A DNA stretch of 64,000 nucleotides from Helicobacter sp. NHP19-012. Its GTDB lineage: Bacteria; Campylobacterota; Campylobacteria; Campylobacterales; Helicobacteraceae. The notes below the pieces were generated by a model. The model had not been told where the DNA came from. It did not search any database and was given only the letters and a program-made list of their open reading frames with translations. This document shows positions 5,310 to 21,693 of this stretch, piece by piece. The DNA is taken from positions 1,116,001 through 1,180,000 of the forward strand of contig NZ_AP024819.1 in assembly GCF_019703325.1 (NCBI RefSeq), read 5' to 3'. Each line of letters opens with the position of its first letter. Within the stretch, counting starts at the first letter, position 1. The translations under genes and the position numbers were made by a program.

Positions 5310-5894
5310 AAAACAGAAGAACTAAAAAAGATCTTTATTTCCTATAAAAACAAAGTGAAGTGGACTTTTTCATCCATAAAGATGCCAAGGGTTTTTAAAT
5401 TAACAATTTGATTTATAATATGCTTGCTAATCTCTATAAAGGCAATGATTTGCAAGAATGGGACATATGTACCATCAAAGTGTTTGCAAAAAATCAAAAA
5501 CATTATATTTGGCATGATTGATCTAATGGGGGTTTGAAAATGAGCTCAAAGCTCTTTGACTCGAGCCAAAATTTGCCAAGAATACGCATATGTCTTTACC
5601 TTAAGACTGCATCAAGAACACCCGTATTTTAGAATCCTTGCTACAAGACAAGGGCATCAACGCACAAATTCAAGAGTGGCAAGATCTACAGCTCATCGAT
5701 CAAAGTTTCAGTTTGGATACCCTTTTAACCGAGCAAAAGTATCGATTTTTGCCCTTTGATACACAACACTTTAGTTTAGAAACTAAATACAAACTTTTAA
5801 ACTCCTTTGGTGATTTAGAATCGGTGCTGAATAACGAATTTATCAAGGCAGACAACTTCCGAGCTCTCAATACTTTAAAAGACAAATACAAAAC
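5310..5894 (+). pseudogene. Remnant of type III restriction-modification methyltransferase (Mod), N-terminal region
   Basis: Fragments in shifting frames match the part of Helicobacter type III Mod proteins that precedes the catalytic motif: FIHKDAKGFL near 5380-5400, YAYVFTL near 5585, then an open stretch from 5638 with LLQDKGINAQIQEWQDL, QKYRFLPFDTQHFSLETKY and FIKADNFRALNTLKDKYK. In intact Mod proteins the last motif is followed by the DPPYNT catalytic motif. Here the sequence instead switches, within the same open frame, to an antitoxin-like sequence at about 5895. So the methyltransferase has lost its catalytic part by recombination and cannot be active. Confidence 0.6.
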
Positions 5895-6112
5895 TTCAAA
5901 CACAGAAGGACGGCGTTTGGCGTATCTTGGTGCCGTTTTAGAGGATGGCGACATGGCAGAACTCAAAGATGCTTTAGCAGTCATTGCTAAGTCTAAGGGC
6001 ATCGACTTGCCCCCTTTTGAGGGGGATACCCCTAAGTTTGCAAGAGTTTAAAAGAAATTGGGTTTGCAGTCTTTAGAGATGCCAAAATGCCAAACCGCTC
6101 AAACCCTATAAA
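5895..6112 (+). pseudogene. Antitoxin remnant (HI1420-type addiction module antidote), copy A
   Basis: From about 5920 the translation reads LAYLGAVLEDGDMAELKDAL and VIAKSKGIDLPPFEGDTPKF, nearly identical to the antitoxin at 17448-17702. A TTA-to-TAA change at 6049-6051 stops it after PKFARV, and the following codons still spell KKLGLQSL. The N-terminal third is replaced by the methyltransferase remnant in the same frame. The DNA identity with copy B continues into the downstream non-coding sequence, showing this is half of a duplicated block. No toxin partner is left at this copy. Confidence 0.7.
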
Positions 6113-6766: not shown

Positions 6767-8556
6767 ATGTCAAGACAAGATAAGCGACACAAATATCATC
6801 CTAGATTCTTGCTCGCTTTGTTCTCAGTTAGTGCCTTTGTTGCGACAGCCCAAGCTGGTGAGTGGTTTTTTGGAGGCGGCTTGGTCTTAGGTGCGCAATC
6901 TAGTTCAGTAACCACGCAAAAGCAAACCCCCACAGCCCAAACTATCGTTAGTCCCAATCTTAAAGCGGTTACCGCCTATGATAAGCAACAGCTAGCCATT
7001 ATCCAGCAACTCGAGGGCGACTATCAACAAGCTCGAGCCAATGCACTTACACAAGAACAGCAAATGCTCTCTCAGCTAAAAGAACAAATCACACAAGAGA
7101 GACAACTCTTGCAGGACTTAGCCAACGTTGGTCAGCCACTAAGAATTGATAGTAAGAGTAAACCTGATAATCCAATTATAGGTAAAATAAACCCCAACAT
7201 CATCACTGCAATTGCAATCCCTGCCAACTACCAAGAGAACGACCAACAACTATTATCAAACTTCCAAAACACCATCAACCAACTCTTATCTCAACAAAAA
7301 GAGAGCGGGGCCAATACTGATAGCCCTCTAGCTCAAGAACTCCAAAAAGCCCAACAGATCCTTAAGAATTACAAGCAACAACTCAAAAACTACAATGATG
7401 TGGCAAAAAACTACAATGACCAAATCACGCGTTATTGGAACAATGCTAAGGCACAATGGGAAAACTACGATAAGGAATATAGACAAAAGGAACTAGATGA
7501 TTTAGGATCCTTTTTAGGCAATGTCTACTACTCTAAGGTTGTTGGTGGTTACCCTATACCCTTGGTAAAGCAGGAACTAGAAATGGCTTTGCACTTTTTC
7601 TTCCCACAAAATGAAATTTCTACTCTTATAAAGTGTTTGTTGCCTGATTTTGAAACAAATAAAACAGACAGTGTCTCTAGCAATGGGATTATTGATTTTC
7701 ACCTCCAAACCAAAACACCCTATGGCACAATCTCGGCATTGGTGCAAGTTTCTCGCAACAATGGCACTATTGTTCCTATCAAGGTAAGCTACAATGGCAC
7801 GCTAGAGCCAAATGTAGTGACGACTAGCACTTTCCCGCAGCCTAATATACCTTCACCCAAAATCAGCCCCCCACATTTTCTCCTAACCCCTCCACCCTCC
7901 CCAATGCCTCTAGTATCCATCAACTCATCAGGGACACTCAGCAAGCCCAAGCACAGATAAAAAACGCCACTAGTCAAACCCAAGCCCAGCTGCAAGCTGC
8001 CTATAACAAAGACCGCTCCGCTCTTGAAAAATCTCTCATTGCTCTGCCCAAAGACACAACTATCCACACCATGCTAACTTCTCAGGAGCGAGAATTAAGG
8101 CACGCCACAAACTTAGGCTTTGATTTGGTTGTAGGCTATGCCGTGCACACCCAAAACAATATTCTAGGCTTTCGTGTTTATGGAATGGTCAGCAACGCTT
8201 ACAATGTAAGAAACAGCGTGCCACAGCAAGAACTATTTTCTAGAGCTTCCGTAGGTTTAGGGGCAAATGTTACCCTCAATTTCATTAGCAACACCACACC
8301 CGGTCATCTCTTTGGTTTTGGGGTGTTTGCTGGAGCTGCTGGAATGGAGAATAATTACATACAAGGGCAACACTTTGCCCACGACTTTAACCTCAATGCT
8401 GTGGGTGGGATAGAATTTCGTTTTAATAGCGATGGATTTCAAATCGGTGTTCGTGTCCCTGTCTTTGATCGCATCCTACACCTTACAGATGATGTGATGA
8501 TCACAAACAGCTATAAAGATCCTTCATGCTTTGCTAACTACATCCATTACTTTTGA
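6767..8556 (+). pseudogene. Hop-like outer-membrane protein with one frameshift
   Basis: The ATG at 6767 (AGGG five bases upstream) gives a signal peptide with the hydrophobic core FLLALFSVSAFVATAQA and cleavage before GEWFFGGG. A long Gln/Asn-rich helical region follows (about residues 40-230). The C-terminal third, GIEFRFNSDGFQIGVRVPVF to the final FANYIHYF, is the Helicobacter OMP beta-barrel with terminal phenylalanine. The frame is broken at the C6 run 7867-7872: one extra C would join both parts into about 596 residues. GTG 6737 and ATG 6752 are alternative starts. Broken as written; homopolymer phase variation or a sequencing error are both possible. Adhesin or porin role unknown. Confidence 0.75.
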
Positions 8557-9711: not shown

Positions 9712-10857
9712 TCAAAACGATTTCTTTCTCTCTAAAAGCTGATTAGAAAGTGCCTTAGGAATGTGATAATCCAAAATAAGCTTTCTGAGAGTATCCGTAT
9801 AAGTTGACACATTAGAGGGATTGAGTTGGTATTTTTTACTAGCTATGGCCTCTAGGACAACATCGCTATAACCAAAATCAAAATGTGTAGGATCGTTATA
9901 GGCATTGAGATTACTTACCATAGGCATTGTCCTTAAATCATGGAGTTCGACATTAGGGTAATTCAAAAGCCGCAAACTAACAGCTTGTGGGGTTTGTAAG
10001 AACATCTCTTCTAAGGAATCTTTAAAGGGTGTATTCTTAGCCTTGTAGACATAGTAATACAAGACACTATGGGGCACATAGTAAAAAATAAAATGGGTTT
10101 TAGGGTGGCTTTTAATAAGGCTTTCTAGATGTTTTTGGGTTTCTTGAAGCACAACTTGCCTGGAGAATAGAATTTGTTGTGTCCATGAAGAAGGTTTAGA
10201 AAAGTTAAGGTAATCAGAGATCACATTCTTCAGATCAGCTTTTCCAGGTTTGCAATAAGGAGCAAACATCGTATTGTAGTGGCTACAAGGACCACGACGA
10301 TCCTTGTGATCCCTTATGGAATGCCAATAAAAAAGGGATTTTTCTGAGACTCTGGAACTAAAAAGATAAGTGAGGAGTTGGGTAAATCGATTGTCGGTTC
10401 TGTAGAGATAATCAGGGAAAGAAAAGGAAATGTTACCTACCATCTCAAGATCAGCTTGGTTGTAATTAGGCATTAAAGCTAGAGGATTAATCGCATAGAC
10501 AACCGTTTTAATGTTCTTGTGTACGGCAAAGGCCAGGCGCAAAGCGCGGTAAAGATCATAACTTGTCTCTCCTGCCATGACAAATTTAAGTGGTTTCTTT
10601 AGATGCAAAATTGAAGAAAGCAAATCTATACTAAACTTCTCTTCTGTGCTCGATCCAGTTAAGATGCTGTCATAATCATAAGTCCTAGCCATACCTGCAA
10701 TGAGCATGCGCTCATCGCCTCCTGTGAAATCCACTCCATACATGGTCGCTTTCCTAAATTGCTGAAAAGGATCCATAATATAGTTAAAGAGCATGACGGA
10801 TCCAAATCCAAACAACATGAACCCAAACACCGCCCAAAGATATGTTTTAGCCGACAC
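9712..10857 (-). CDS. Membrane-anchored SGNH/AlgJ-DltD-like protein, acyl-transfer partner
   Basis: 381 residues from a GTG at 10857 with AGGAT upstream. One N-terminal membrane segment (WAVFGFMLFGFGSVMLFNYI) anchors a periplasmic domain. The candidate nucleophile serine lies in SILTGSSTEEKFSIDLL, around residue 65-75, and DPTHFDFGYSDVVL near residue 330 supplies the Asp-x-x-His pair of SGNH hydrolases and acyltransferases. It follows the MBOAT gene by eight bases, as AlgJ, DltD and PatB follow AlgI, DltB and PatA. It probably moves the acyl group delivered by the MBOAT protein onto a periplasmic glycan or teichoate-like acceptor. The acceptor is unknown. It is the last gene of the operon. 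Confidence 0.65.
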   Translation of the reverse strand: MSAKTYLWAVFGFMLFGFGSVMLFNYIMDPFQQFRKATMYGVDFTGGDERMLIAGMARTYDYDSILTGSSTEEKFSIDLLSSILHLKKPLKFVMAGETSYDLYRALRLAFAVHKNIKTVVYAINPLALMPNYNQADLEMVGNISFSFPDYLYRTDNRFTQLLTYLFSSRVSEKSLFYWHSIRDHKDRRGPCSHYNTMFAPYCKPGKADLKNVISDYLNFSKPSSWTQQILFSRQVVLQETQKHLESLIKSHPKTHFIFYYVPHSVLYYYVYKAKNTPFKDSLEEMFLQTPQAVSLRLLNYPNVELHDLRTMPMVSNLNAYNDPTHFDFGYSDVVLEAIASKKYQLNPSNVSTYTDTLRKLILDYHIPKALSNQLLERKKSF

Positions 10858-10865
10858 GATTTATC

Positions 10866-12320
10866 CTAAAAGTTAAAGTAAATGAATTCAGACACGCGGT
10901 TGACATAAACCAGCACATAATACCCAATAAAAGAAATTGTGGCATAGGTCCAGCCTAAACGCCATAAAGAGGGTTTAAAACTTTCTAAAACTTGGCAACT
11001 ATTTTTAAAACAAAAGGTGATCACAAGGGCTAAAACAGCCGCAGTTCCAATGAAATATTTGCTGGTATAATCTAGCTCTCTACTAAAGAAATAATTTTTA
11101 AATCCACTCATCAAAAACATCGCCTTAAGCACTTTAAGCGCGTCCCCCCAGTCTTTTGCTCTAAAAAACACTTCTGTAATGTTCACATAGTTAAAGGTGA
11201 TAAACCACCCCAACCACACGGGGAGGGGCTTAAGCTTGTATTTTTTGCGCACTTTCTTAGACCAGTAGTGATTGACCACCACGCCTAGCCCATGCAAGAG
11301 CCCAAAGAAAACAAACATCCAGCTCGCCCCATGCCAAAGCCCGGCGATCAAAAAAGCGATGAAAATAGCTAGCATTGAGGTGTGGAAAGTGATTTGAGAA
11401 AACATGCGCGCCACAGATACATAGAGATAATCAAAAATAAAGCGACTCAATGTCATGTGCCATCTTTGCCAATACTCCACCATGCTCGTTGCCTTGTAAG
11501 GGCTGTTGAAGTTTTGGGGCAGGCGGATATTAAAGAGTAAAGCTGCCCCGATTGCCATGTCTGTATACCCGCTAAAGTCAAAGTAGAGTTGGAAAGTGTA
11601 GGCTAAAGAAGTCATCCACCCCTCTAAAGCAGAGAGCACCTTAGAGGTGTCAAAACCCATAGTGGCGACTTTGGCGAGGCTGTCGGCGATCACCACCTTT
11701 TTAAAAAGCCCGATGGCAAAGATAAAAATCCCACTAGCAATGTTATCTAAAGAGATGCGTTTATTGCTGTCTTTAGCAAATTGGGGCATCATCTCTTGGT
11801 GGTGGACGATGGGACCCGCGATGAGCTGAGGGAAGAAGGTTACGAACAAGGTATAGTCTAAGAAATTAGAAAAGCCAGCTTGGGGTTTTTTCTCTGTTTC
11901 GATTTTGGCATAACTGTCGAGCAAAAAGGTGAGTTGTTGCAAGGTGAAAAAGCTAATGGCTAAAGGCAACGCTAAATGCAAGAGATTTACAGAGGTGCTA
12001 AAGAGCGCGTTGAAGTTGCTAAGAAAGAAGTCGGCGTATTTGAAATAGCCCAGCAAAGCCACATTGGCGATGATCCCACAAACAAGCCACGCTTTAGCCT
12101 GCTTAGGGCGCACCCACATCGCTTGCACAATGGCGTAGTTAAAAATAATGGAAATTAAAATGAGGGGGAGGTATTTGACATTCCAATAGGCGTAAAAAAA
12201 CAAGCTCGCCCCCACTAAAAACGCCTTCGCCCCCAAAGCACTCCAACGGCTTAAAACAAAATAGCCTAAAAAGCTCAAAGGCAAAAACATAAAAATAAAC
12301 TCTACAGAATTAAAAAGCAT
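10866..12320 (-). CDS. MBOAT family acyltransferase (AlgI/DltB/PatA type)
   Basis: 484 residues with about ten hydrophobic segments. The MBOAT core is clear: EYWQRWHMTLSRFIFDYLYV near residue 285-305, and the catalytic histidine in LIAGLWHGASWMFVFFGLLHG around residue 330. The start has AGAAAGG seven bases upstream. These proteins carry acyl groups from a cytoplasmic donor across the inner membrane to a periplasmic sugar or peptidoglycan. H. pylori HP0855 is of this family, but there it does not sit in a carrier-protein operon as far as I recall. With a dedicated ACP encoded upstream, the donor here is probably acyl-ACP, as with DltB and DltC. Confidence 0.85.
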   Translation of the reverse strand: MLFNSVEFIFMFLPLSFLGYFVLSRWSALGAKAFLVGASLFFYAYWNVKYLPLILISIIFNYAIVQAMWVRPKQAKAWLVCGIIANVALLGYFKYADFFLSNFNALFSTSVNLLHLALPLAISFFTLQQLTFLLDSYAKIETEKKPQAGFSNFLDYTLFVTFFPQLIAGPIVHHQEMMPQFAKDSNKRISLDNIASGIFIFAIGLFKKVVIADSLAKVATMGFDTSKVLSALEGWMTSLAYTFQLYFDFSGYTDMAIGAALLFNIRLPQNFNSPYKATSMVEYWQRWHMTLSRFIFDYLYVSVARMFSQITFHTSMLAIFIAFLIAGLWHGASWMFVFFGLLHGLGVVVNHYWSKKVRKKYKLKPLPVWLGWFITFNYVNITEVFFRAKDWGDALKVLKAMFLMSGFKNYFFSRELDYTSKYFIGTAAVLALVITFCFKNSCQVLESFKPSLWRLGWTYATISFIGYYVLVYVNRVSEFIYFNF

Positions 12321-12333
12321 AAAAACCTTTCTG

Positions 12334-13044
12334 TTAAAATCCCAACCCGCCCGTGATGGGGATGTTTAGCCCTGTCATGTAATCGCTCCCACTAGAGAGC
12401 AAAAAGAGCAACATGGGCACAATGTCCTTTGGGGTAGCGTTGCGCTTTAGAGGGTGGTTTTCAGCTGCCACCTGCACGATTTTAGGGTCGATGCTTTCTA
12501 AAAACTTGGTTTCGATCATGGAGGGAGAAAGGCAGTTGATTTGGATATTGTGCTCCTTGTAATCGCTTGCCATAGAACGCATGAGCCCTAACAAGGCATA
12601 TTTCATCGTGGTATAAACGCTGGTGTGTTTGGGGGGGATGTTGCACACAAAACTTGAGAGCATCGCCACCACCTTACCCCCCTGCTTTCGGCGTGCGAGG
12701 GGGGGTAAAAAAGCTTGCAACATCAAAAAGAAGCTTTGCACACTGGCGCTAAAGTCGTGTTGCAAGGCTTGGGGGGAGATGTCTTTAAGACGGGTGTAGG
12801 CATACTTGGGGTGGGCTAGATGCACGATTTTATTAGGCGTGGGGTGGTTAGCCTTAATGTTTTCAATCAAGGCTTGCACTTCTTGCAAAGAGCTTAAATC
12901 CGCCTTGAGGGGGTGTAAATTAGGCTTGTTGGGCAGGGGGCTTTTGTGGCTGTGGGCTAAAATAATGGCTTCTCTTGGCAATGCCTCCAAAAGGGCTAGC
13001 CCCAAATCCGAGGAAGCCCCTAAGATTAAATAGGTATCTTTCAT
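12334..13044 (-). CDS. Short-chain dehydrogenase/reductase, FabG-like
   Basis: 236 residues. The nucleotide-binding start is LILGASSDLGLAL, a variant of TGxxxGxG. The catalytic serine is in VVAMLSSFVC and the YxxxK pair is YTTMKYA, followed by SPSMIETKFL and the C-terminal ITGGLGF typical of FabG-like ketoreductases. The start overlaps the preceding MaoC stop as ATGA, so translation is coupled. It probably reduces or oxidises the acyl group at the beta position while bound to the operon's carrier protein. NNAG is replaced by HLAHP, so cofactor handling may differ. Substrate inferred from context only. Confidence 0.75.
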   Translation of the reverse strand: MKDTYLILGASSDLGLALLEALPREAIILAHSHKSPLPNKPNLHPLKADLSSLQEVQALIENIKANHPTPNKIVHLAHPKYAYTRLKDISPQALQHDFSASVQSFFLMLQAFLPPLARRKQGGKVVAMLSSFVCNIPPKHTSVYTTMKYALLGLMRSMASDYKEHNIQINCLSPSMIETKFLESIDPKIVQVAAENHPLKRNATPKDIVPMLLFLLSSGSDYMTGLNIPITGGLGF

Positions 13045-13505
13045 TCTAAGACCTTGGCTAAAATGTCTGCAGTGCTCACTAAAAAGGGTTCATCATTGAT
13101 ATTCTCAATGCGCGCTTTTAAACTTGCCACTTGGAAAGCCTCATTCAAATGCACAATGCGCCCGCTCACCTGCAAGCAATCCCCCACATAGACGGGTTTT
13201 TTAAAGCGTAGGTCATAACTTAAAGACATGGCATATTCCCCGGGCAAGTGCTTACCCACTAGCCTAGAATAAAACATGCCCAGTGCCGCCCCGTGCAAGA
13301 GCACCCCCTTAAAACCCTTTGAAAGCATGTAATCCGTGTTGGCGTGCAAATGGCTATCATCGCCGCTTAGGACCCTGAATTTTTCCAACATTTCTGCAGT
13401 CACCACAACGCTAAACCCGCCACACATGCCCACACGCAATTCTTGAAACTTATACGCATGCTTTAGACCAACAGCCCCACCTGTAATTTGGCGCGGCTCA
13501 CACAT
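13041..13505 (-). CDS. MaoC-like hot-dog dehydratase/hydratase, second copy
   Basis: 154 residues from an ATG at 13505. The hydratase 2 motif is FRVLSGDDSHLHANTDYMLS, with Asp and His in the usual places, then GFKGVLLHGAALGMFYSRLV. It is about 40% like the preceding MaoC gene by eye, so the pair arose by tandem duplication. Its first 43 bases overlap the end of that gene, and the ATG lies two bases after a G9 run that could act as a ribosome binding site. If the run were G10, both hot-dog domains would form one polypeptide. Likely role: hydration or dehydration of a short acyl-ACP. Confidence 0.75.
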   Translation of the reverse strand: MCEPRQITGGAVGLKHAYKFQELRVGMCGGFSVVVTAEMLEKFRVLSGDDSHLHANTDYMLSKGFKGVLLHGAALGMFYSRLVGKHLPGEYAMSLSYDLRFKKPVYVGDCLQVSGRIVHLNEAFQVASLKARIENINDEPFLVSTADILAKVLE

Positions 13506-13906
13506 AGCCCCCCCCCGATGAGGGCATCAATGCCTGCGCTGATCTCGATCGTTTTAAAGCTTGCATTGCAATGGGTGATCTTGCCCCAAACGCGCAAATC
13601 TGCAGGGGCGTAAAGAGGGTTTTTAAACGCCACTTTGATCCCCTGAAAGAGGGCGTATTTGCCGGGCAAATGCATCCCCACCAAGCGGGAATAATATGCG
13701 CTGTGTAACATTCCATGCACCACGCAATCTTTAAAGCCCTTTTCTTGGGCATAGCTGGGGTCTGTGTGTAGGGGGTTGGTGTCCCCACTGAGTGCGCTAA
13801 ACTCTTGCAGGTTTTGTGGGTTTAAGGTGAGGTTAAAACTTTCTTCCAAGCCCTCAAAGAGGTCGGCAAAGCGGTAGGTTTTAAGCATGCTCAAGTTTGC
13901 GTTCAA
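13463..13906 (-). CDS. MaoC-like hot-dog dehydratase/hydratase, first copy
   Basis: 147 residues. The hot-dog helix motif is FSALSGDTNPLHTDPSYAQE (residues about 38-57) with conserved Asp and His, followed by FKDCVVHGMLHSAYYSRLVG. In the G9 state the C-terminal strand reads CVSRAKLQVGLLV, which aligns with the end of the second copy, so this gene is complete as written. ATG 13888, overlapping the ACP stop as ATGCTTAA, is an alternative start giving MLKTYRF. It forms the middle of a tightly packed minus-strand operon. The usual family activity is (R)-specific enoyl-thioester hydration. Confidence 0.75.
   Translation of the reverse strand: MNANLSMLKTYRFADLFEGLEESFNLTLNPQNLQEFSALSGDTNPLHTDPSYAQEKGFKDCVVHGMLHSAYYSRLVGMHLPGKYALFQGIKVAFKNPLYAPADLRVWGKITHCNASFKTIEISAGIDALIGGGLCVSRAKLQVGLLV
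13508..13516 (-). repeat. G9 homopolymer (C9 on + strand) at the junction of the two MaoC genes
   Basis: Nine G residues code GGG in the first MaoC gene. G9 gives two separate proteins; G10 would join the frames into one tandem hot-dog protein of about 289 residues; G8 would stop the first gene at once. A run of this length is prone to slippage in Helicobacter. Confidence 0.7.
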
Positions 13907-14132
13907 TCAACGCCACCATTTCACCCACATTTTTAAGCCCTTGCAATTCGCTTAAGTGGAACTTGATTTTAAAATGTTTCTCAATGGCACTGATCAAACT
14001 AATGTGATTTAGGCTATCCCAATCCTCAATGTCGTTAGCGTTTGTGCTCTCATTGATGACTAAACTCGAGTCGTCAAAAATATCTCTAAAAATCTCTTGC
14101 AACTGGCTAAAAATCTGTGTTGTTTCCATCAT
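13881..14132 (-). CDS. Dedicated acyl carrier protein
   Basis: 83 residues, acidic, four-helix ACP fold. The phosphopantetheine attachment motif is DWDSLNHISLISAIEKHF, serine at about residue 40. It is not the housekeeping AcpP (whose motif is normally GADSLDTVEL) and it overlaps both neighbours: the FkbH-like gene by 26 bases and the MaoC gene. It therefore probably carries the acyl group made and used by this operon, like DltC in D-alanylation. A 4'-phosphopantetheinyl transferase would have to come from elsewhere in the genome. Confidence 0.85.
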   Translation of the reverse strand: MMETTQIFSQLQEIFRDIFDDSSLVINESTNANDIEDWDSLNHISLISAIEKHFKIKFHLSELQGLKNVGEMVALIERKLEHA

Positions 14133-15870
14133 TTACCTTTATATAGTGGGGTTTGTCTGTGTGTTTCTCTAAATCCAAACTAAAAACGCTCCCGGTTTCG
14201 TTTTGGCTTTCCAAAGCGAAACCAAAGCTGGCATAAAGCTGGGCGACCATCGCATTTTTAGGCGTGGGGTGGTAATAGCCCTTGAGGGTTTTTATGCCCA
14301 AATCCTTAGCCCGCTTGGCTAAAAAGTTGAGCATGGCAAATTCTAAATCCCTTTTAAGAACCCGACAACTCATCAGCCAAATTTCTAAATGGCAAATCTC
14401 CCCCTCAATGCGCCCCACGCTGATCGCCACGATGCCATTGTCCCCGAATTTATCCACAAGCTGTCCATAAAGCGTGATATAAGCCGGACTTTGCGCCCAC
14501 TCTTGCACTTGCGCTAGGGTACATCTCTTTGTGGTGCAGTTAAATTGGTTGGTCTTGTTGATGAGTTGGGTCAAGCGTTCAAAGATATTGGGGTTAAAAG
14601 GGGCGATAGTGGCGCGCATTTCTAAGCTTTGTAAAAACTCGGCATAAGATCCAAATTGTTGCTGTGCACTTTGGCGCTGGGCATTAGCTTGGTATTGGGC
14701 AGCACGGGCTAAATCCTCTTGGCTTAAAGAAATGGGCTCAAAATACCCCGCTTTATCTAGCCTCGTAATGTATTCCTCGGGTTGCCCTATATCTGGCACA
14801 GCCACGCTAGGTAATTGTGCAGAAACTAAAGCCCGCTCTGCCGGGTTGTCATCCACAAAGACGAAACTATCCAAGCCCAAATTCAATTCTTTAGCGATCT
14901 CTACAATGTTGCGATCTTTGGGCTCAAAATTGGCCTTAATGCACGCAAAATCCGCAGGCTTTAAAAGCATGTTTTCATGGGATAAAGCTAAAAGCGCGTT
15001 TTCATGCGTGTTCTTAGAACAAATGGCGAGCAACACCCCCCGCTCTTTGAGTTCTAAAATGTAGCGCTGAAAAGTGGTGTAACTCTCTGCTAGAGCGCTC
15101 TCACTCCCAATCACCAAGCCGGCCAAGCCATCATCGGCGATCACCCCGCCGTATAAGGTGTTGTCCATGTCTAGGATCAAAACTTTTTTAGAAAGCCCAA
15201 AGAGGGCGCAAAGAATTTTAGAGAGATTAAAAGCCACACAAGCCAGGCCTTCATAACTCATGGCGTATTTGGCGCGGTAGTATAAGTTAGAATCAAACCA
15301 CTTAGACAGCCCCACCTGTGCGGACAGATACAGCAAATCTTGTATATACACAGAGGGGTGTTCTTTGACAAGAGCTACAAGGGCAGTATTTAAGGTGTTG
15401 ATGAAGTGGGTTTTACCACTCAAGGCATCTAAATTACCCAATGAACGGTGCTGGGGCAAGTCAAAATTATTGACAATGACCGCGCAAGAATAGCAGGTTT
15501 TTAAAGAGATAAGCATGATCTCTAATTTGCCCATCTCTTGCTGGACAAGTTTGGCGATCTCTTCTGCTGAGGCGTTGAGCTCAGGAAAACGCTCAATGTT
15601 GAGGCTGGAAGTGTGTAGGTAGATGAGATCGGGAGCAAAGTCCCTTAAAGCGGGGTTTTCAAACGCACTTTCTTCGTAGTAGCGGTTGTAATCGCTCTCA
15701 TAAAAGCTAGGCACAATCCCCGCCTTTAAAAGGCAGACCTCTAAAAGGTCTTTAAGTTCAGCGGTGCTTGAGCCCCCAGGAGGGCTATTTTCTTAGGAGT
15801 TCCCCCCCCCAGTTAATAACTCTCTTTTGAGGCGTTTTTTATGGCGTAAAAAATAAGAAACATCTTGCAT
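14107..15870 (-). CDS. FkbH-like HAD-IIIC/acyltransferase protein, frame-broken by a G9 tract (likely phase-OFF)
   Basis: The intact part, from 15714, holds the HAD motif VLILDMDNTLYGGVIADDG, the later motif FVFVDDNPAERALV and a GNAT-like C-terminus. FkbH proteins load a three-carbon glyceryl unit (from 1,3-bisphosphoglycerate) onto an ACP, or act in related acyl activation. The true N-terminus lies upstream: KIALLGGSSTAELKDLLEVC is readable before the GTG at 15714, and an ATG at 15870 starts MQDVSYFLRHKKRLKRELLT. The two are separated by a G9 run at 15802-15810. With G9, translation from 15870 stops six codons after the run begins; G8 or G11 gives about 587 residues, normal for the family. 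First gene of the operon. Confidence 0.8.
15802..15810 (-). repeat. G9 homopolymer inside the FkbH-like gene, codon 21 onward
   Basis: Nine C on the plus strand, nine G on the coding strand, directly after codon 20. G8 or G11 restores the frame; G9 and G10 do not. This is the position and form of phase-variation tracts in Helicobacter surface-modification genes. Confidence 0.75.
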
Positions 15871-17140: not shown

Positions 17141-17457
17141 ATGGAGATACAGACATCGAGCGAATTTAAAAAGTGGCTAAAACCTCAAAGATTTAAACGG
17201 AAAAGGTGTACTTACACGCCGCATACAGAGTTAAAAAAGAGCGGACACTTTGGTGATCATAAACACATTACGGGTTAAATCTTTGAAATGCGTATCCACA
17301 TGGGTGCAAGTTACCGCTTGTATATGGATAAATGGGGCGAGGTGTTGGTGATTTTGCTGTGGCGCGCCGTACAGTGGCGCGCTTAAGGCGACAAAAGCAC
17401 ACAGCAAAAAGATATAATCAAGGCACAAAAATCTTAAAAGATTATCCATGTCCGTAA
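17141..17457 (+). pseudogene. HigB/RelE-like toxin (addiction module killer protein), broken, copy B
   Basis: An ATG at 17141 starts MEIQTSSEFKKWLK. The motif GHFGDHKHITG precedes a stop at about 17278, and the protein continues in another frame as IFEMRIHMGASYRLYMDKWG, EVLVILL. Where the family has the motif CGGDKSTQ, a short insertion containing two copies of TGGCGCGC gives a stop. The end GDKSTQQKDIIKAQKILKDY reads on to a TAA at 17455-17457, overlapping the antitoxin ATG as in intact modules of this type (killer first, antidote second). At least two frameshifts make it inactive. The intact family acts as mRNA-cleaving toxins; here activity is lost. Confidence 0.75.
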
Positions 17458-17702
17458 CCTTTAAACCCTTTAATGCAGCCGAGTTCTTAGACTCCGATCA
17501 AGTGCGTTTAAGTCATCTTAGTGCCGTTTTAGAGGATGGCGACATGGCAGAACTCAAAGATACTTTAGCAGTCATTGCCGAGTCTAAAGGCATTGACTTG
17601 CCCCCTTTTGAGGGGGATGCCCCTAAGTTTGCAAGAGTCTTAAAGAAATTGGGTTTTGGGTTGCAGTCTTTGGATGAGATGCAAAAGCATAACACGGCTT
17701 AA
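17448..17702 (+). CDS. Antitoxin-like protein (HI1420-type antidote), helix-turn-helix shortened, copy B
   Basis: 84 residues, start overlapping the toxin end. FKPFNAAEFLDSDQVRLSHL and LSAVLEDGDMAELKDTLAVI match the N-terminal half of addiction module antidote proteins, and KFARVLKKLGFGLQSL matches the C-terminal end. The family's middle part, the helix-turn-helix with its ETGLSREALY-like motif, is replaced by the short GIDLPPFEGDAP, so about 16 residues are missing. Copy A at 5895 has the same form, so this was already so before duplication. With a broken toxin beside it, the gene may have no current role, or serve as a solo protein that lost DNA binding. Confidence 0.65.
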   Translation: MSVTFKPFNAAEFLDSDQVRLSHLSAVLEDGDMAELKDTLAVIAESKGIDLPPFEGDAPKFARVLKKLGFGLQSLDEMQKHNTA

Positions 17703-18377: not shown

Positions 18378-19233
18378 ATGGCTGTTAAGCGAAAACTAGC
18401 TAGTGCGCTTTTATTTGGCACCCTAGAGTTTTTCTCTTTACTCCCTTTGAAGGCAGAAAAGAGTGGAGTGTTTATAGAGGGTGGATTTGAGTATTCGCAT
18501 GGTTCGGGGGTTTTTAAATAATATGCAGCAGATCAATTCACAATACCAGGGGTGCCCAGTCTAGTAGTTCAATCCACAAACTTCTATAAGGGCAATCTTT
18601 TTGGAGGGAATATCCAAGCAGGTTTTAAGCTATTCTTTGGCCAAACAAGACGCTTTGGATTGCGTTTCTATGGGTTCTTTAGTGGGCAAGCAGGCAATGC
18701 TAATTCTACCCACAGCAAAGATCCAGATTCTAACTTCGTCATAAAAGACCAACCCACTTCTAATTTTTTTCTACGCTGGGGGTGTAGATGCACTTTATAA
18801 CTTTTATGACAAGAATAACCGCTCTTTTGGAGTCTTTGCAGGTTTGATGGTTGGGTGGAACTCTTGGTCCATGGGTGAGAGCAAGCAATGTGCGGGGACT
18901 GCTATTTATAGCCCTGGTGGATTTGATGGGGGTTGCGTGTCGACCAATAAATTTTTCCAACAGCTGTTGCACACCGATAGCGAATACTACCCTGAATTTA
19001 AAACCTCTTCCTCATTTGCTTTTGTGCAAGCTGTCGTGAATCTTGGGTTTAGGTTTAATTTTACTAAACACCAAGGTCTTGAAGTGGGGGTGCGTATCCC
19101 TACCATCAACACTCCTGGTTATGTCAGTAAGGGTGCCTTTTTGGAACACAACATTGTTAAAGTCGAGCTTAATGATTCCCTGACTTTCAGGCGTGATATA
19201 GCTGCTTTTATCGATTATGTTATTAGTTTTTAG
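18378..19233 (+). pseudogene. Hop-like outer-membrane protein, nonsense and frameshift
   Basis: The ATG at 18378 has the strong site AAGGAGG seven bases upstream. A signal peptide (KLASALLFGTLEFFSLLPLKA) is followed by EKSGVFIEGGFEYSHGSG, a typical mature Hop start. An in-frame TAA at 18519-18521 interrupts it. The frame goes on through GGNIQAGFKLFFGQTRRFGL until a T7 run at 18764-18770, where one T too many shifts it. It continues as FYAGGVDALYNFYDKNNRSF to the barrel end GLEVGVRIPTINTPGY and IAAFIDYVISF, with terminal phenylalanine. The total would be about 284 residues. Its leader and upstream toxin-antitoxin remnants match those of the other porin locus. Confidence 0.75.
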
Positions 19234-19662: not shown

Positions 19663-20655
19663 CTACGCCTTTTCTCCAAAATACACTAGCGCAGAGCCCC
19701 AAGTGAGGCCGCCACCAAAGGCATCCAAGAGCATTAAATCACCCGTTTTGAGCTTGCCCTGCTCGTAAATTTCGTTCATCGCCATAGGGATGCTCGCGGC
19801 TGAAGTGTTGCCGTATTTTTGCACGGTCAAGACCACTTGTTCCTCTTTGAAGGCGAGCTGGTTTTGCACCGCTTGGATGATGCGCAAATTCGCTTGGTGG
19901 GGGATAAAGTAAGCGACCTGCTCGGGGGTGATGGTGTTGGCCTGAAGGATTTCCTCCACATCTTTAAGCAAGGTTTTAATCGCAAGCTTAAAAATTTCAT
20001 TGCCCTTCATGTGCAACGCTTGGCTGTCCTCATACCCGGGGCAAAAGGCACTGGCTTTAATGTTTCTTGGGGTGTAAAGGTAGTCGCCAAAGTTGCCATT
20101 GGCCGCAATTTTCACATCTAAAATACTCTTTTTAAGGTCATCCGTGGGTGAGATCACGCATGCGCCCGCCCCATCTCCAAAGAGCACGCAAGTGGAGCGG
20201 TCGCTAAAGTCTAAAACGCTGCTGCACTTCTCCGCCCCCACAATCAGCACATTTTGATACATCCCACTCTCCACAAACGCCTTAGCGGTGGCGAGCAAGT
20301 AAATAAACCCACTACAAGCGGCAATGAGGTCCATGCTGGGCGTGTTCTCTAGGCCTAATTTCGCGCTAAGACCGCAGGCGGTAGAGGGCATGGCGACATA
20401 ATCCGGGCTCAAGGTGCCCACCAAAACCAAATCAATGTCCTCTTTTTTTAAGCCCGCCCGCTCAATGGCAAGCTTGGCCGCCTGCACGCCTAAATCGCTG
20501 CTCTTTTCCTCTGGGGACGCAAAATAGCGGGTCTTGATCCCCGTGCGCTTTTGTATCCACTCGTCCGTGGTGTCTAAAAGCCCCTCAAAGGCGCTGTTGG
20601 GGACACAATTTTGGGGGACATAAGCCGCTACAGAGCGCAACATTGCATAGGGCAT
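19663..20655 (-). CDS. fabH: Beta-ketoacyl-ACP synthase III
   Basis: 330 residues. The catalytic triad is present: Cys in [14 protein letters not shown] (about residue 113), His in [12 protein letters not shown] and Asn in [13 protein letters not shown]. It condenses acetyl-CoA with malonyl-ACP to start fatty acid synthesis in the cytoplasm. The start at 20655 has AAGGAAATTT upstream. It follows plsX by nine bases and ends the ndk-yceD-rpmF-plsX-fabH operon, the same order as H. pylori HP0198-HP0202. Its end forms an inverted repeat with the downstream bases (19651-19676) that may help termination. Confidence 0.95.
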
Positions 20656-20664
20656 AAATTTCCT

Positions 20665-21693
20665 TTAAGAGACAGGGGGGCTTTGCGTGCCCACATTTTT
20701 ATGGCTGAAGGCTTGCGCCATTTTCTGTGCCACGCCGCTTTCCTTCGCCCGAATCGCCTGATAAATGGCGCATTCAATCGCCCGTGCATTGCTCTTACCA
20801 TGGCTGATAACAACCGCCTTATTCACGCCCAAAAGCGGCGCACCGCCATATTCAGCGTAGTCGGTCTTTTGCTTAAGCGTATCAAAGGCCTCTTTTAAGA
20901 GAAACGCCCCGATTTTGGCGCTAAAATGCTCTTTAATCGTGGTCTTAAAAATGCTGCCGATCGCGCTGGCGACCCCCTCGGTGGTTTTGAGCACAATGTT
21001 GCCCACAAAGCCATCGCACACCACGACATCCACGCTATTAACGAAAATGTCGTTGCCCTCCACATTGCCCTTGAAAATGGATGTATTTTCGGCAAATAGG
21101 GGGTAGTCGTGGATGAGCTTAAACGCCTCTTTGGTGAGGCTATCGCCCTTGCTGTCCTCCTCACCATTGGCTAAAATCCCCACCGTGGGGTTGTCATAGC
21201 CCAACACACTTTTGGCATATTCATAGCCCAAAATGGCAAAGTCCAGCAGATACTCCGCCTTGCAATCGGTGTTCGCGCCCACGTCTAGGCACAAGCTCGC
21301 CCTCTTGCCCACGGAGGGCATGAGTGTGCATAAAGCGGGGCGGCTCACGCCCTTAATGCGCCCGAGCTTGAGCGTGGCAAGCCCCATTGTCGCCCCGCTA
21401 TGCCCGGCCGAGACTAAGGCATCTGCCCCGTTTTTTAAAATATCCATTCCCACGAAGATCGAAGCCTCTTTGCGCTTGAGTGCCTCGGTGGCCTGCTCCT
21501 CCATGCGGATAAAGTCGGGGCAGTCAATGACTTCCACTTTAGAAGCCAAATCCTTAGAAATGAACGCCTTTGCCTTCTTGGCATCGCCCACTAAAATGGG
21601 CTCAAACGCCCTGCTCGCTAACGCCTTAGAAACGCCCTCAATAATGGGTAAGACCCCAAGGTCTGCCCCCATCATGTCAACAACGATTTTCAT
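20665..21693 (-). CDS. plsX: Phosphate acyltransferase PlsX
   Basis: 342 residues with the PlsX start [20 protein letters not shown] (DxMGGD-like), then [20 protein letters not shown] and [18 protein letters not shown], and the C-terminal [20 protein letters not shown]. It makes acyl-phosphate from acyl-ACP for phospholipid synthesis at the inner face of the membrane. It sits between rpmF and fabH, as in most proteobacteria. No irregularity is visible. Confidence 0.95.

Follow-up and report, generated by a model that had tools for sequence, protein, structure and literature searches.

An FkbH-ACP-MaoC-SDR-MBOAT-SGNH operon in Helicobacter sp. NHP19-012: a candidate phase-variable surface acylation pathway from a modular family

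The seven-gene operon and described acyl-transfer systems

Acyl-transfer machines that pair a membrane-bound O-acyltransferase (MBOAT) with an SGNH protein are fed by an aminoacyl carrier in the Dlt system and by acetyl in the Pat and Alg systems. To our knowledge, PatA/PatB work without a carrier protein or a loader. A carrier-bound hydroxy acid serves a surface sugar in the tetronate pathway of Vibrio cholerae O1 (rfbKLMNO), and the loading module of BryA in bryostatin synthesis contains FkbH, DH, and KR domains that are thought to make a lactyl starter. We analyzed a window of 64,000 nucleotides from Helicobacter sp. NHP19-012 (contig NZ_AP024819.1, positions 1,116,001–1,180,000 of the forward strand; unless a locus is named, positions below are those of the window), in which seven minus-strand genes at 9712..15870 encode an FkbH-like protein, an acyl carrier protein (ACP), two MaoC proteins, a short-chain dehydrogenase/reductase (SDR), an MBOAT, and an SGNH protein. 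The set is a variant of the known MBOAT/SGNH acyl-transfer systems. We computed its gene identities, catalytic motifs, and order, the co-occurrence of MaoC and SDR, and the enrichment and frame states of its G/C tracts, and we favor, at a probability of about 0.5, a phase-variable surface acylation pathway of Dlt-like build with a different donor. If true, this would be a third feed for MBOAT/SGNH machines, drawn from a glycolytic intermediate. The features are as follows, in the direction of the genes.

15715..15870, minus strand: 5′ part of the FkbH gene, frame-broken in NHP19-012; conserved ATG at 15870 (compared with loci L062, L063, L064, and L082)
15802..15810: run of nine G (minus-strand sense) at the FkbH 5′ end, candidate phase-variation tract
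14107..15714, minus strand: FkbH-like HAD-IIIC protein, open frame of 535 amino acids, N-terminally short; TIGR01686 and FkbH_N; DMDNT and SCRV motifs
13881..14132, minus strand: ACP with DSL motif (Ser40); PF00550
13463..13906, minus strand: MaoC1, R-hydratase-like dehydratase; PF01575; Asp42/His47 kept; poly-G turn before the last strand
13508..13516: run of nine G (minus-strand sense) in the last beta-turn of MaoC1, candidate phase-variation tract
13041..13505, minus strand: MaoC2, the gastric clade's second MaoC; PF01575; invariant Asp and His kept, motif altered (GDDSHLH)
12334..13044, minus strand: FabG-like SDR reductase; PF13561; YTTMK and the preceding Ser region kept
10866..12320, minus strand: MBOAT, DltB-like membrane acyltransferase; PF03062; WHG His at 330
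9712..10857, minus strand: SGNH-fold protein, putatively DltD/PatB-like; one N-terminal helix; GSS (Ser) and DPTH motifs

An earlier, sequence-only reading of this DNA had placed seven genes of these families here, and the open frames and family matches bore this out, as did a structure model in the case of the SGNH protein. Neighboring genes overlap by 4–43 bases or are separated by 8–13 bases. The FkbH protein matched TIGR01686 at 293 bits (cut-off 147), a score that supports its earlier designation as putative loader of a C3 unit; it also matched FkbH_N, carries the HAD Asp motif (DxDxT) as DMDNT at residue 182, and has an SCRV Cys motif that is kept in 44 of the 44 listed frames. A plasmid search with FkbH gave 114 records, all below 60% identity (best 44%). 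The MBOAT, the only one found in the NHP19-012 genome, matched PF03062 at 103 bits (cut-off 27) and the DltB of the PDB with an E value of 7e-29. The 9712..10857 protein matched no Pfam or NCBIfam family; its predicted model has an SGNH fold that resembles DltD and PatB. The model of MaoC1 (pLDDT 93) shows an (R)-hydratase-type hot-dog fold with PhaJ (1iq6) as its best PDB match (TM 0.82/0.91), and the MaoC residues Asp42 and His47 are invariant across 18 aligned rows. Catalytic motifs are also retained in the ACP (DSL), SDR (YxxxK), and MBOAT (WHG).

The operon resembles DltABCD in its dedicated carrier protein, its DltB-like MBOAT, and, judging from the model, its putatively DltD-like SGNH protein. 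It differs in its loader, which is FkbH, with no DltA adenylation enzyme found among the seven genes by family matches; in the addition of MaoC and SDR as editing enzymes; and in its MBOAT, which scores far below the cut-off of the DltB equivalog TIGR04091 (166 versus 375 bits). PatA/PatB differ from it in that the operon holds an ACP, and no other MBOAT was found in the genome. The earlier proposal of an acyl pathway on a private carrier, coupled to an MBOAT/SGNH pair and akin to Dlt and Pat, is supported. As in the glyceryl-ACP units of methoxymalonyl and tetronate polyketide pathways, FkbH is accompanied by a stand-alone ACP (excerpts of PMC7489565); the polyketide glyceryl-ACP is oxidized or used by a FabH-like enzyme, whereas the operon has MaoC, SDR, and an export acyltransferase instead. 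By description, the flagellar glycan locus of Campylobacter jejuni is also similar, being a surface glycan locus of Campylobacterota with an fkbH-domain gene, cj1302, and with glyceric acid on the glycan (excerpts of PMC7099621 and PMC3958885); cj1302 may be linked to that glyceric acid. Our literature search, whose coverage left out most subscription papers, gave weak negatives on three points: nothing on FkbH with lactyl-ACP, nothing on MBOAT, SGNH, and ACP together, and no paper that ties FkbH to bryostatin lactyl loading. Judged by title, papers on FkbH with an MBOAT concerned cyanobacterial peptides, those on FkbH with glyceryl and bisphosphoglycerate concerned polyketides, and the one match for Helicobacter phase variation with MaoC concerned Staphylococcus; a paper on HAD-IIIC phosphatases dealt with a Bacillus antibiotic.

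Recurrence of the operon and its modules

FkbH was present at an E value of 1e-60 or better in 13 of 121 Helicobacteraceae genomes, NHP19-012 included, and in 14 of 397 genomes sampled across the phylum, two outside Helicobacteraceae at 30–32% identity. The order FkbH-ACP-MaoC-SDR-MBOAT on one strand was kept in 11 of the 13 FkbH-carrying Helicobacteraceae genomes, and the modules recur in Lachnospiraceae; conservation in relatives, on which the sequence-only reading had staked its proposal, was thus observed. The order holds despite a split MBOAT in NHP21005 (genome G010) and a broken MaoC in G099; the exceptions are H. mehlei (G014), with no full SDR, and H. anseris (G096), with no adjacent MBOAT or SGNH. 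Among the 11 ordered copies, nine have the MBOAT directly after the SDR and two (G097 and G100) have it after a second ACP; in G095 and G099, an S-adenosylmethionine methyltransferase gene lies between ACP and MaoC. A protein like the window's SGNH was found by BLAST behind the MBOAT in eight of the 13 genomes. Its place is taken in G040, G057, and G092 by a protein of 330–388 amino acids that aligns at 14–15% identity; two of these proteins match DUF1574 below the cut-off, and the third matches no family. The two MaoC genes, earlier counted as part of the set, are both present in NHP19-012, but among the loci examined a second MaoC is confined to the gastric clade, the other loci having one. 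MBOAT/SGNH pairs without FkbH are frequent in Helicobacteraceae.

At least 7989 FkbH homologues were found; Aliarcobacter cryaerophilus is among the best 120, which were listed, and the named matches outside Helicobacteraceae in a single scan of species genomes were six Lachnospiraceae loci. Of 200 sampled Lachnospiraceae genomes, 27 had FkbH at an E value of 1e-100 or better, 22 of them of the closer type. We tabulated 26 loci, namely 20 neighborhoods from sampled genomes and the six named loci; some of these stretches are truncated by contig ends. Kept out of the table were L143–L147 (more distant Lachnospiraceae FkbH, 35–38% identical), L148 (which matched MaoC but not SDR), L149 (which matched SDR at 73 bits but not MaoC), and L081, a more distant FkbH locus in which no MaoC, SDR, or MBOAT was found. 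An ACP was seen in 24 of the 26 loci and an MBOAT in 18, including five of the nine with MaoC. MaoC and SDR occurred together in eight loci, MaoC alone in one, SDR alone in none, and neither in 17 (Fisher test 5.8e-6, indicative only as the loci are related); L090 is among those without MaoC, and we did not score as cognate the SDR hits in L125 (61 bits) and L140 (29 bits) or the lower-scoring of the two hits in L091 (49 bits). This co-occurrence fits two consecutive steps.

The transferase at the end of the series is less constant. Four of the nine MaoC loci lack an MBOAT, and three of these four have another acyltransferase nearby: L137 has a hexapeptide protein like PglD, and L141 and L142 have GNATs. 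FkbH-ACP-MBOAT without MaoC and SDR also occurs, for example in L124 and L140. FkbH and ACP are the core of the family, the MaoC/SDR pair is optional, and the acyltransferase is variable (MBOAT, PglD-like hexapeptide protein, or GNAT). The arrangement looks like a single acyl-ACP factory coupled to a choice of transferases, and, if this is true, such a factory serves them in two phyla. The seven-gene set had earlier been put forward as a possible new system; with modular family members in Helicobacteraceae and Lachnospiraceae, it is a variant of a broad family and not a one-off.

The relatives have surface-sugar genes nearby, including a glycosyltransferase, a polysaccharide deacetylase, and cytidylyltransferases. 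Among the Lachnospiraceae loci, Pfam matches identified a glycosyltransferase in L086, two cytidylyltransferases and MocA-type oxidoreductases in L132, and an epimerase in L137, the remaining neighbors of this kind being judged from sequence alone. Epimerase-like genes of the VOC/glyoxalase fold lie near FkbH-ACP in L090, L123, L127, L130, L134, L135, L138, and L139; Pfam Glyoxalase_4 matched in all three of these that were scanned (L127, L130, and L139). Such genes occurred in 8 of 17 loci without MaoC versus 0 of 9 with it (Fisher test 0.023) when two weak short hits (L125 and L132) were excluded. The association is a lead only, because counting these hits gives 9 of 17 versus 1 of 9 (p 0.087). 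Perhaps these genes act in C2 epimerization of glyceryl-ACP.

G/C runs and probable exchange of operon segments

Two of the 24 G/C runs of at least nine bases in the NHP19-012 genome lie inside the 6.2 kb operon, against 0.09 expected. Across the 13 Helicobacteraceae genomes, the operons hold 23 such runs, compared with 2.60 expected from each genome's own count and mostly rounded genome sizes, and at least one run is present in 12 of the 13 (none in G057). Two whole Lachnospiraceae genomes contained 0 and 2 G/C runs, and no run of at least eight was found in the six Lachnospiraceae loci examined. Recurrent homopolymer runs are typical of host-facing surface structures. As in contingency loci, the operon runs lie inside coding frames, are enriched over the genome, and are found in both frame states in relatives. 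By these signs the operon is a phase-variation hot spot, and we infer that the runs vary in living populations.

A run in MaoC was found in 12 of 15 Helicobacter operon loci (one of eight bases, the others of at least nine); it is missing from L072, L082, and L092, the latter two of which retain only the second MaoC. In 10 of the 15 loci it falls at the same turn, around residue 128, although the non-gastric proteins among these 10 share only 29–45% identity with the window's; in two it falls around residue 57. In the MaoC1 model, the run sits at the turn between strands 119–128 and 134–145, the latter being the final one in the sheet. Behind the run, six of the 12 loci are in frame and six are out of frame, and genome G092 carries two operon copies (L073 and L074), one with MaoC in frame and the other out of frame. 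In L074, FkbH and SDR match in pieces only. Since the run recurs in the same beta-turn in 10 of 15 loci, the editing enzyme appears to be switchable, and the displayed acyl group could change as a result. Neither the run at 13508–13516 nor the recurrent phase variation had been noticed in the sequence-only reading.

Runs at the FkbH 5′ end are poly-G in the gastric clade and poly-C in G097 and G100, and further runs occur in the methyltransferase genes (G095 and G099), the second ACP (G097 and G100), and a second SGNH gene (G008). In NHP19-012, the frame from the conserved ATG at 15870 meets a stop just behind the nine-G run at 15802–15810, and a second frame break follows shortly 3′ of it. 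The run alone therefore cannot explain the break, and the single "G8 form" of FkbH envisaged earlier does not hold. The FkbH of H. cynogastricus is intact and without a G-run, and its 589 amino acids include 54 more N-terminal residues than the NHP19-012 frame starting at 15714. Given the frame breaks, FkbH in NHP19-012 is predicted to be off or produced from an internal start. A GA dinucleotide repeat stands at the frame split of the MBOAT in L078 (~6862–7500) and L079 (~10300–10822), relatives with the MBOAT-SGNH pair only; these are perhaps phase-variable MBOATs without FkbH.

DNA identity changes abruptly along the operon. Compared with NHP21005, the segment MaoC1-MaoC2-SDR-MBOAT is 95–99.8% identical, FkbH and ACP 87–88%, and SGNH 75–77% in two pieces only, and compared with H. 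felis, the values are 100% for ACP, 99.8% for MaoC2, 98.3% for SDR, 87% for FkbH and MaoC1, and 80% for MBOAT. Such jumps suggest that species have exchanged parts of the operon. Far from its operon, the NHP21005 genome has a 296-base piece (L150:6625–6960, G010:C1) that is 97% identical to the SGNH gene of the window, although the SGNH of the NHP21005 operon is only ~52% identical in protein to the window's. The 5 kb flanks in the window gave only short matches to the compared stretches.

Proposed pathway, alternatives, and neighboring genes

Glyceryl-ACP belongs to the 3-hydroxyacyl thioesters and has a further hydroxyl at position 2. In the pathway that we favor, FkbH would take glyceryl from 1,3-bisphosphoglycerate, strip the phosphate, and load the group on the dedicated ACP. 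MaoC would dehydrate glyceryl-ACP (a 2,3-dihydroxypropionyl thioester) to enolpyruvyl- or pyruvyl-ACP, which SDR would reduce to lactyl-ACP. The MBOAT would then take the group from the ACP and, together with the membrane-anchored SGNH protein, attach it to a glycan outside the cytoplasm. The substrate, product, and acceptor in this scheme are putative. MaoC and SDR had earlier been assigned to reducing or hydrating the C3 unit; judged by the enzyme classes, a net conversion of glyceryl to lactyl by dehydration and then reduction is the most likely course. Chain growth of the C3 unit is unlikely, because no ketosynthase was found among the seven genes by family matches (other operon copies were not scanned for one). 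The G/C runs in FkbH would switch loading on and off, and slippage in the MaoC run may swap one acyl group for another (lactyl versus glyceryl) instead of abolishing it; FkbH-ACP-MBOAT without MaoC and SDR would give plain glyceryl. Excerpts of PMC3679948 are among the support for this pathway. If true, the operon is a concrete candidate for a variable host-facing decoration in gastric Helicobacter, and switching the frame of a tailoring enzyme could change the chemistry of a surface group, not just turn its display on or off.

Several observations weigh against this pathway. The lactyl group is deduced from enzyme classes. FkbH is out of frame at the 5′ run in NHP19-012 and in three gastric relatives (H. 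felis L063, NHP21005 L064, and H. mehlei L082), and the L069 MaoC has an additional break upstream of the run. Of the 26 close-type FkbH proteins from Lachnospiraceae, 24 lack the Cys next to HAD motif II (it is present in L142 and unmatched in L129); this Cys is therefore not a family-wide nucleophile. Scores against TIGR04091 were 133–157 bits in four stand-alone MBOATs and 161–171 bits in four cassette MBOATs, all below 375; with values so near each other, DltB likeness does not discriminate, and we dropped it as a sign of carrier use. In H. mehlei, the only SDR hit is a 48-base remnant and the MBOAT is split; H. bizzozeronii lacks MaoC1 and has a split MBOAT, as has NHP21005; no SGNH homologue was found in H. 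felis, nor an adjacent MBOAT in H. anseris. Part of the family is therefore decaying or re-plumbed.

A tentative extension of the favored pathway, possible but well short of likely, is a switchable acyl code. Slippage in MaoC would select the C3 group (lactyl in frame, glyceryl out of frame) that the same MBOAT/SGNH pair displays, and tracts in FkbH and, among relatives, in a methyltransferase, a second ACP, and a second SGNH would set on/off states and further variants. Acyl identity, and not only acyl presence, would then be phase-variable through a Dlt-like system fed from glycolysis by FkbH. More doubtful is that glyceryl itself is displayed while MaoC and SDR proofread, recycle, or act on something else. 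For this speak the 17 of 26 Lachnospiraceae loci with FkbH but without MaoC and SDR, 15 of which have an ACP and 13 an MBOAT, together with the di-O-methylglyceric acid pseudaminic derivative on C. jejuni flagellin (excerpts of PMC3958885) and the presence of cj1302 in the flagellar glycan region (excerpts of PMC7099621). Against it, MaoC and SDR stand in order with FkbH-ACP in Helicobacter, with their catalytic residues kept.

It is unlikely that the NHP19-012 operon is a degraded, non-functional remnant. Although the FkbH 5′ end has two frame breaks and the MBOAT is broken in several relatives, the reading frames of the remaining six genes are open and their catalytic motifs are kept, FkbH is intact and full-length in H. 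cynogastricus, and MaoC2, SDR, and ACP are 98–100% identical in DNA to the H. felis copies. Slightly less likely again is a cytoplasmic transferase that places the acyl-ACP group on a nucleotide sugar, with the MBOAT/SGNH pair doing a separate job such as O-acetylation. This would suit the frequent FkbH-less MBOAT/SGNH pairs of Helicobacteraceae and the loci in which a PglD-like protein (L137) or a GNAT (L141 and L142), and no MBOAT, lies beside FkbH-ACP-MaoC. However, the NHP19-012 operon contains no other acyltransferase, the MBOAT directly follows the SDR in 9 of the 11 ordered copies and a second ACP in the other 2, and cassette and stand-alone Helicobacter MBOATs fell into separate groups of a tree after L015, in fact the cassette gene of L070, had been relabelled. 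Because the tree has an open backbone and long branches, we claim no single origin for the cassette MBOATs. Least likely is a longer, fatty-acid-like 3-hydroxyacyl group, with the SDR as FabG, MaoC as dehydratase, and the FkbH starter extended by housekeeping FabH/FabF: the SDR does resemble FabG, and fabH and plsX lie 4 kb upstream (19663–21693), but this common housekeeping pair is separate from the operon, which lacks a ketosynthase of its own among the seven genes.

A promoter and terminator scan gave sites no more numerous than in shuffled sequences. In two relatives (L069:2356–6896 and L066:15421–17646), the operon adjoins genes of the phosphoenolpyruvate-utilizing enzyme, glutamine amidotransferase, nucleotidyltransferase, and inositol-monophosphatase types, which we take to resemble the phosphoramidate capsule set of Campylobacter. 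Behind the MBOAT of H. felis (L063:6049–8400) lie a polysaccharide deacetylase gene, a gene for a protein without family, and a further ACP-like gene; the family-less protein is 32% identical to a Pfam-less protein beside FkbH in Lachnospiraceae L132. In the window, HP_OMP (Helicobacter outer membrane protein) genes flank the operon on both sides (8071–8556 and 18844–19233). So do two small genes with similar C-terminal parts (5638–6051 and 17448–17702), the first of which has a match below cut-off to the HI1420-type antidote family; they are perhaps toxin-antitoxin remnants around the operon.

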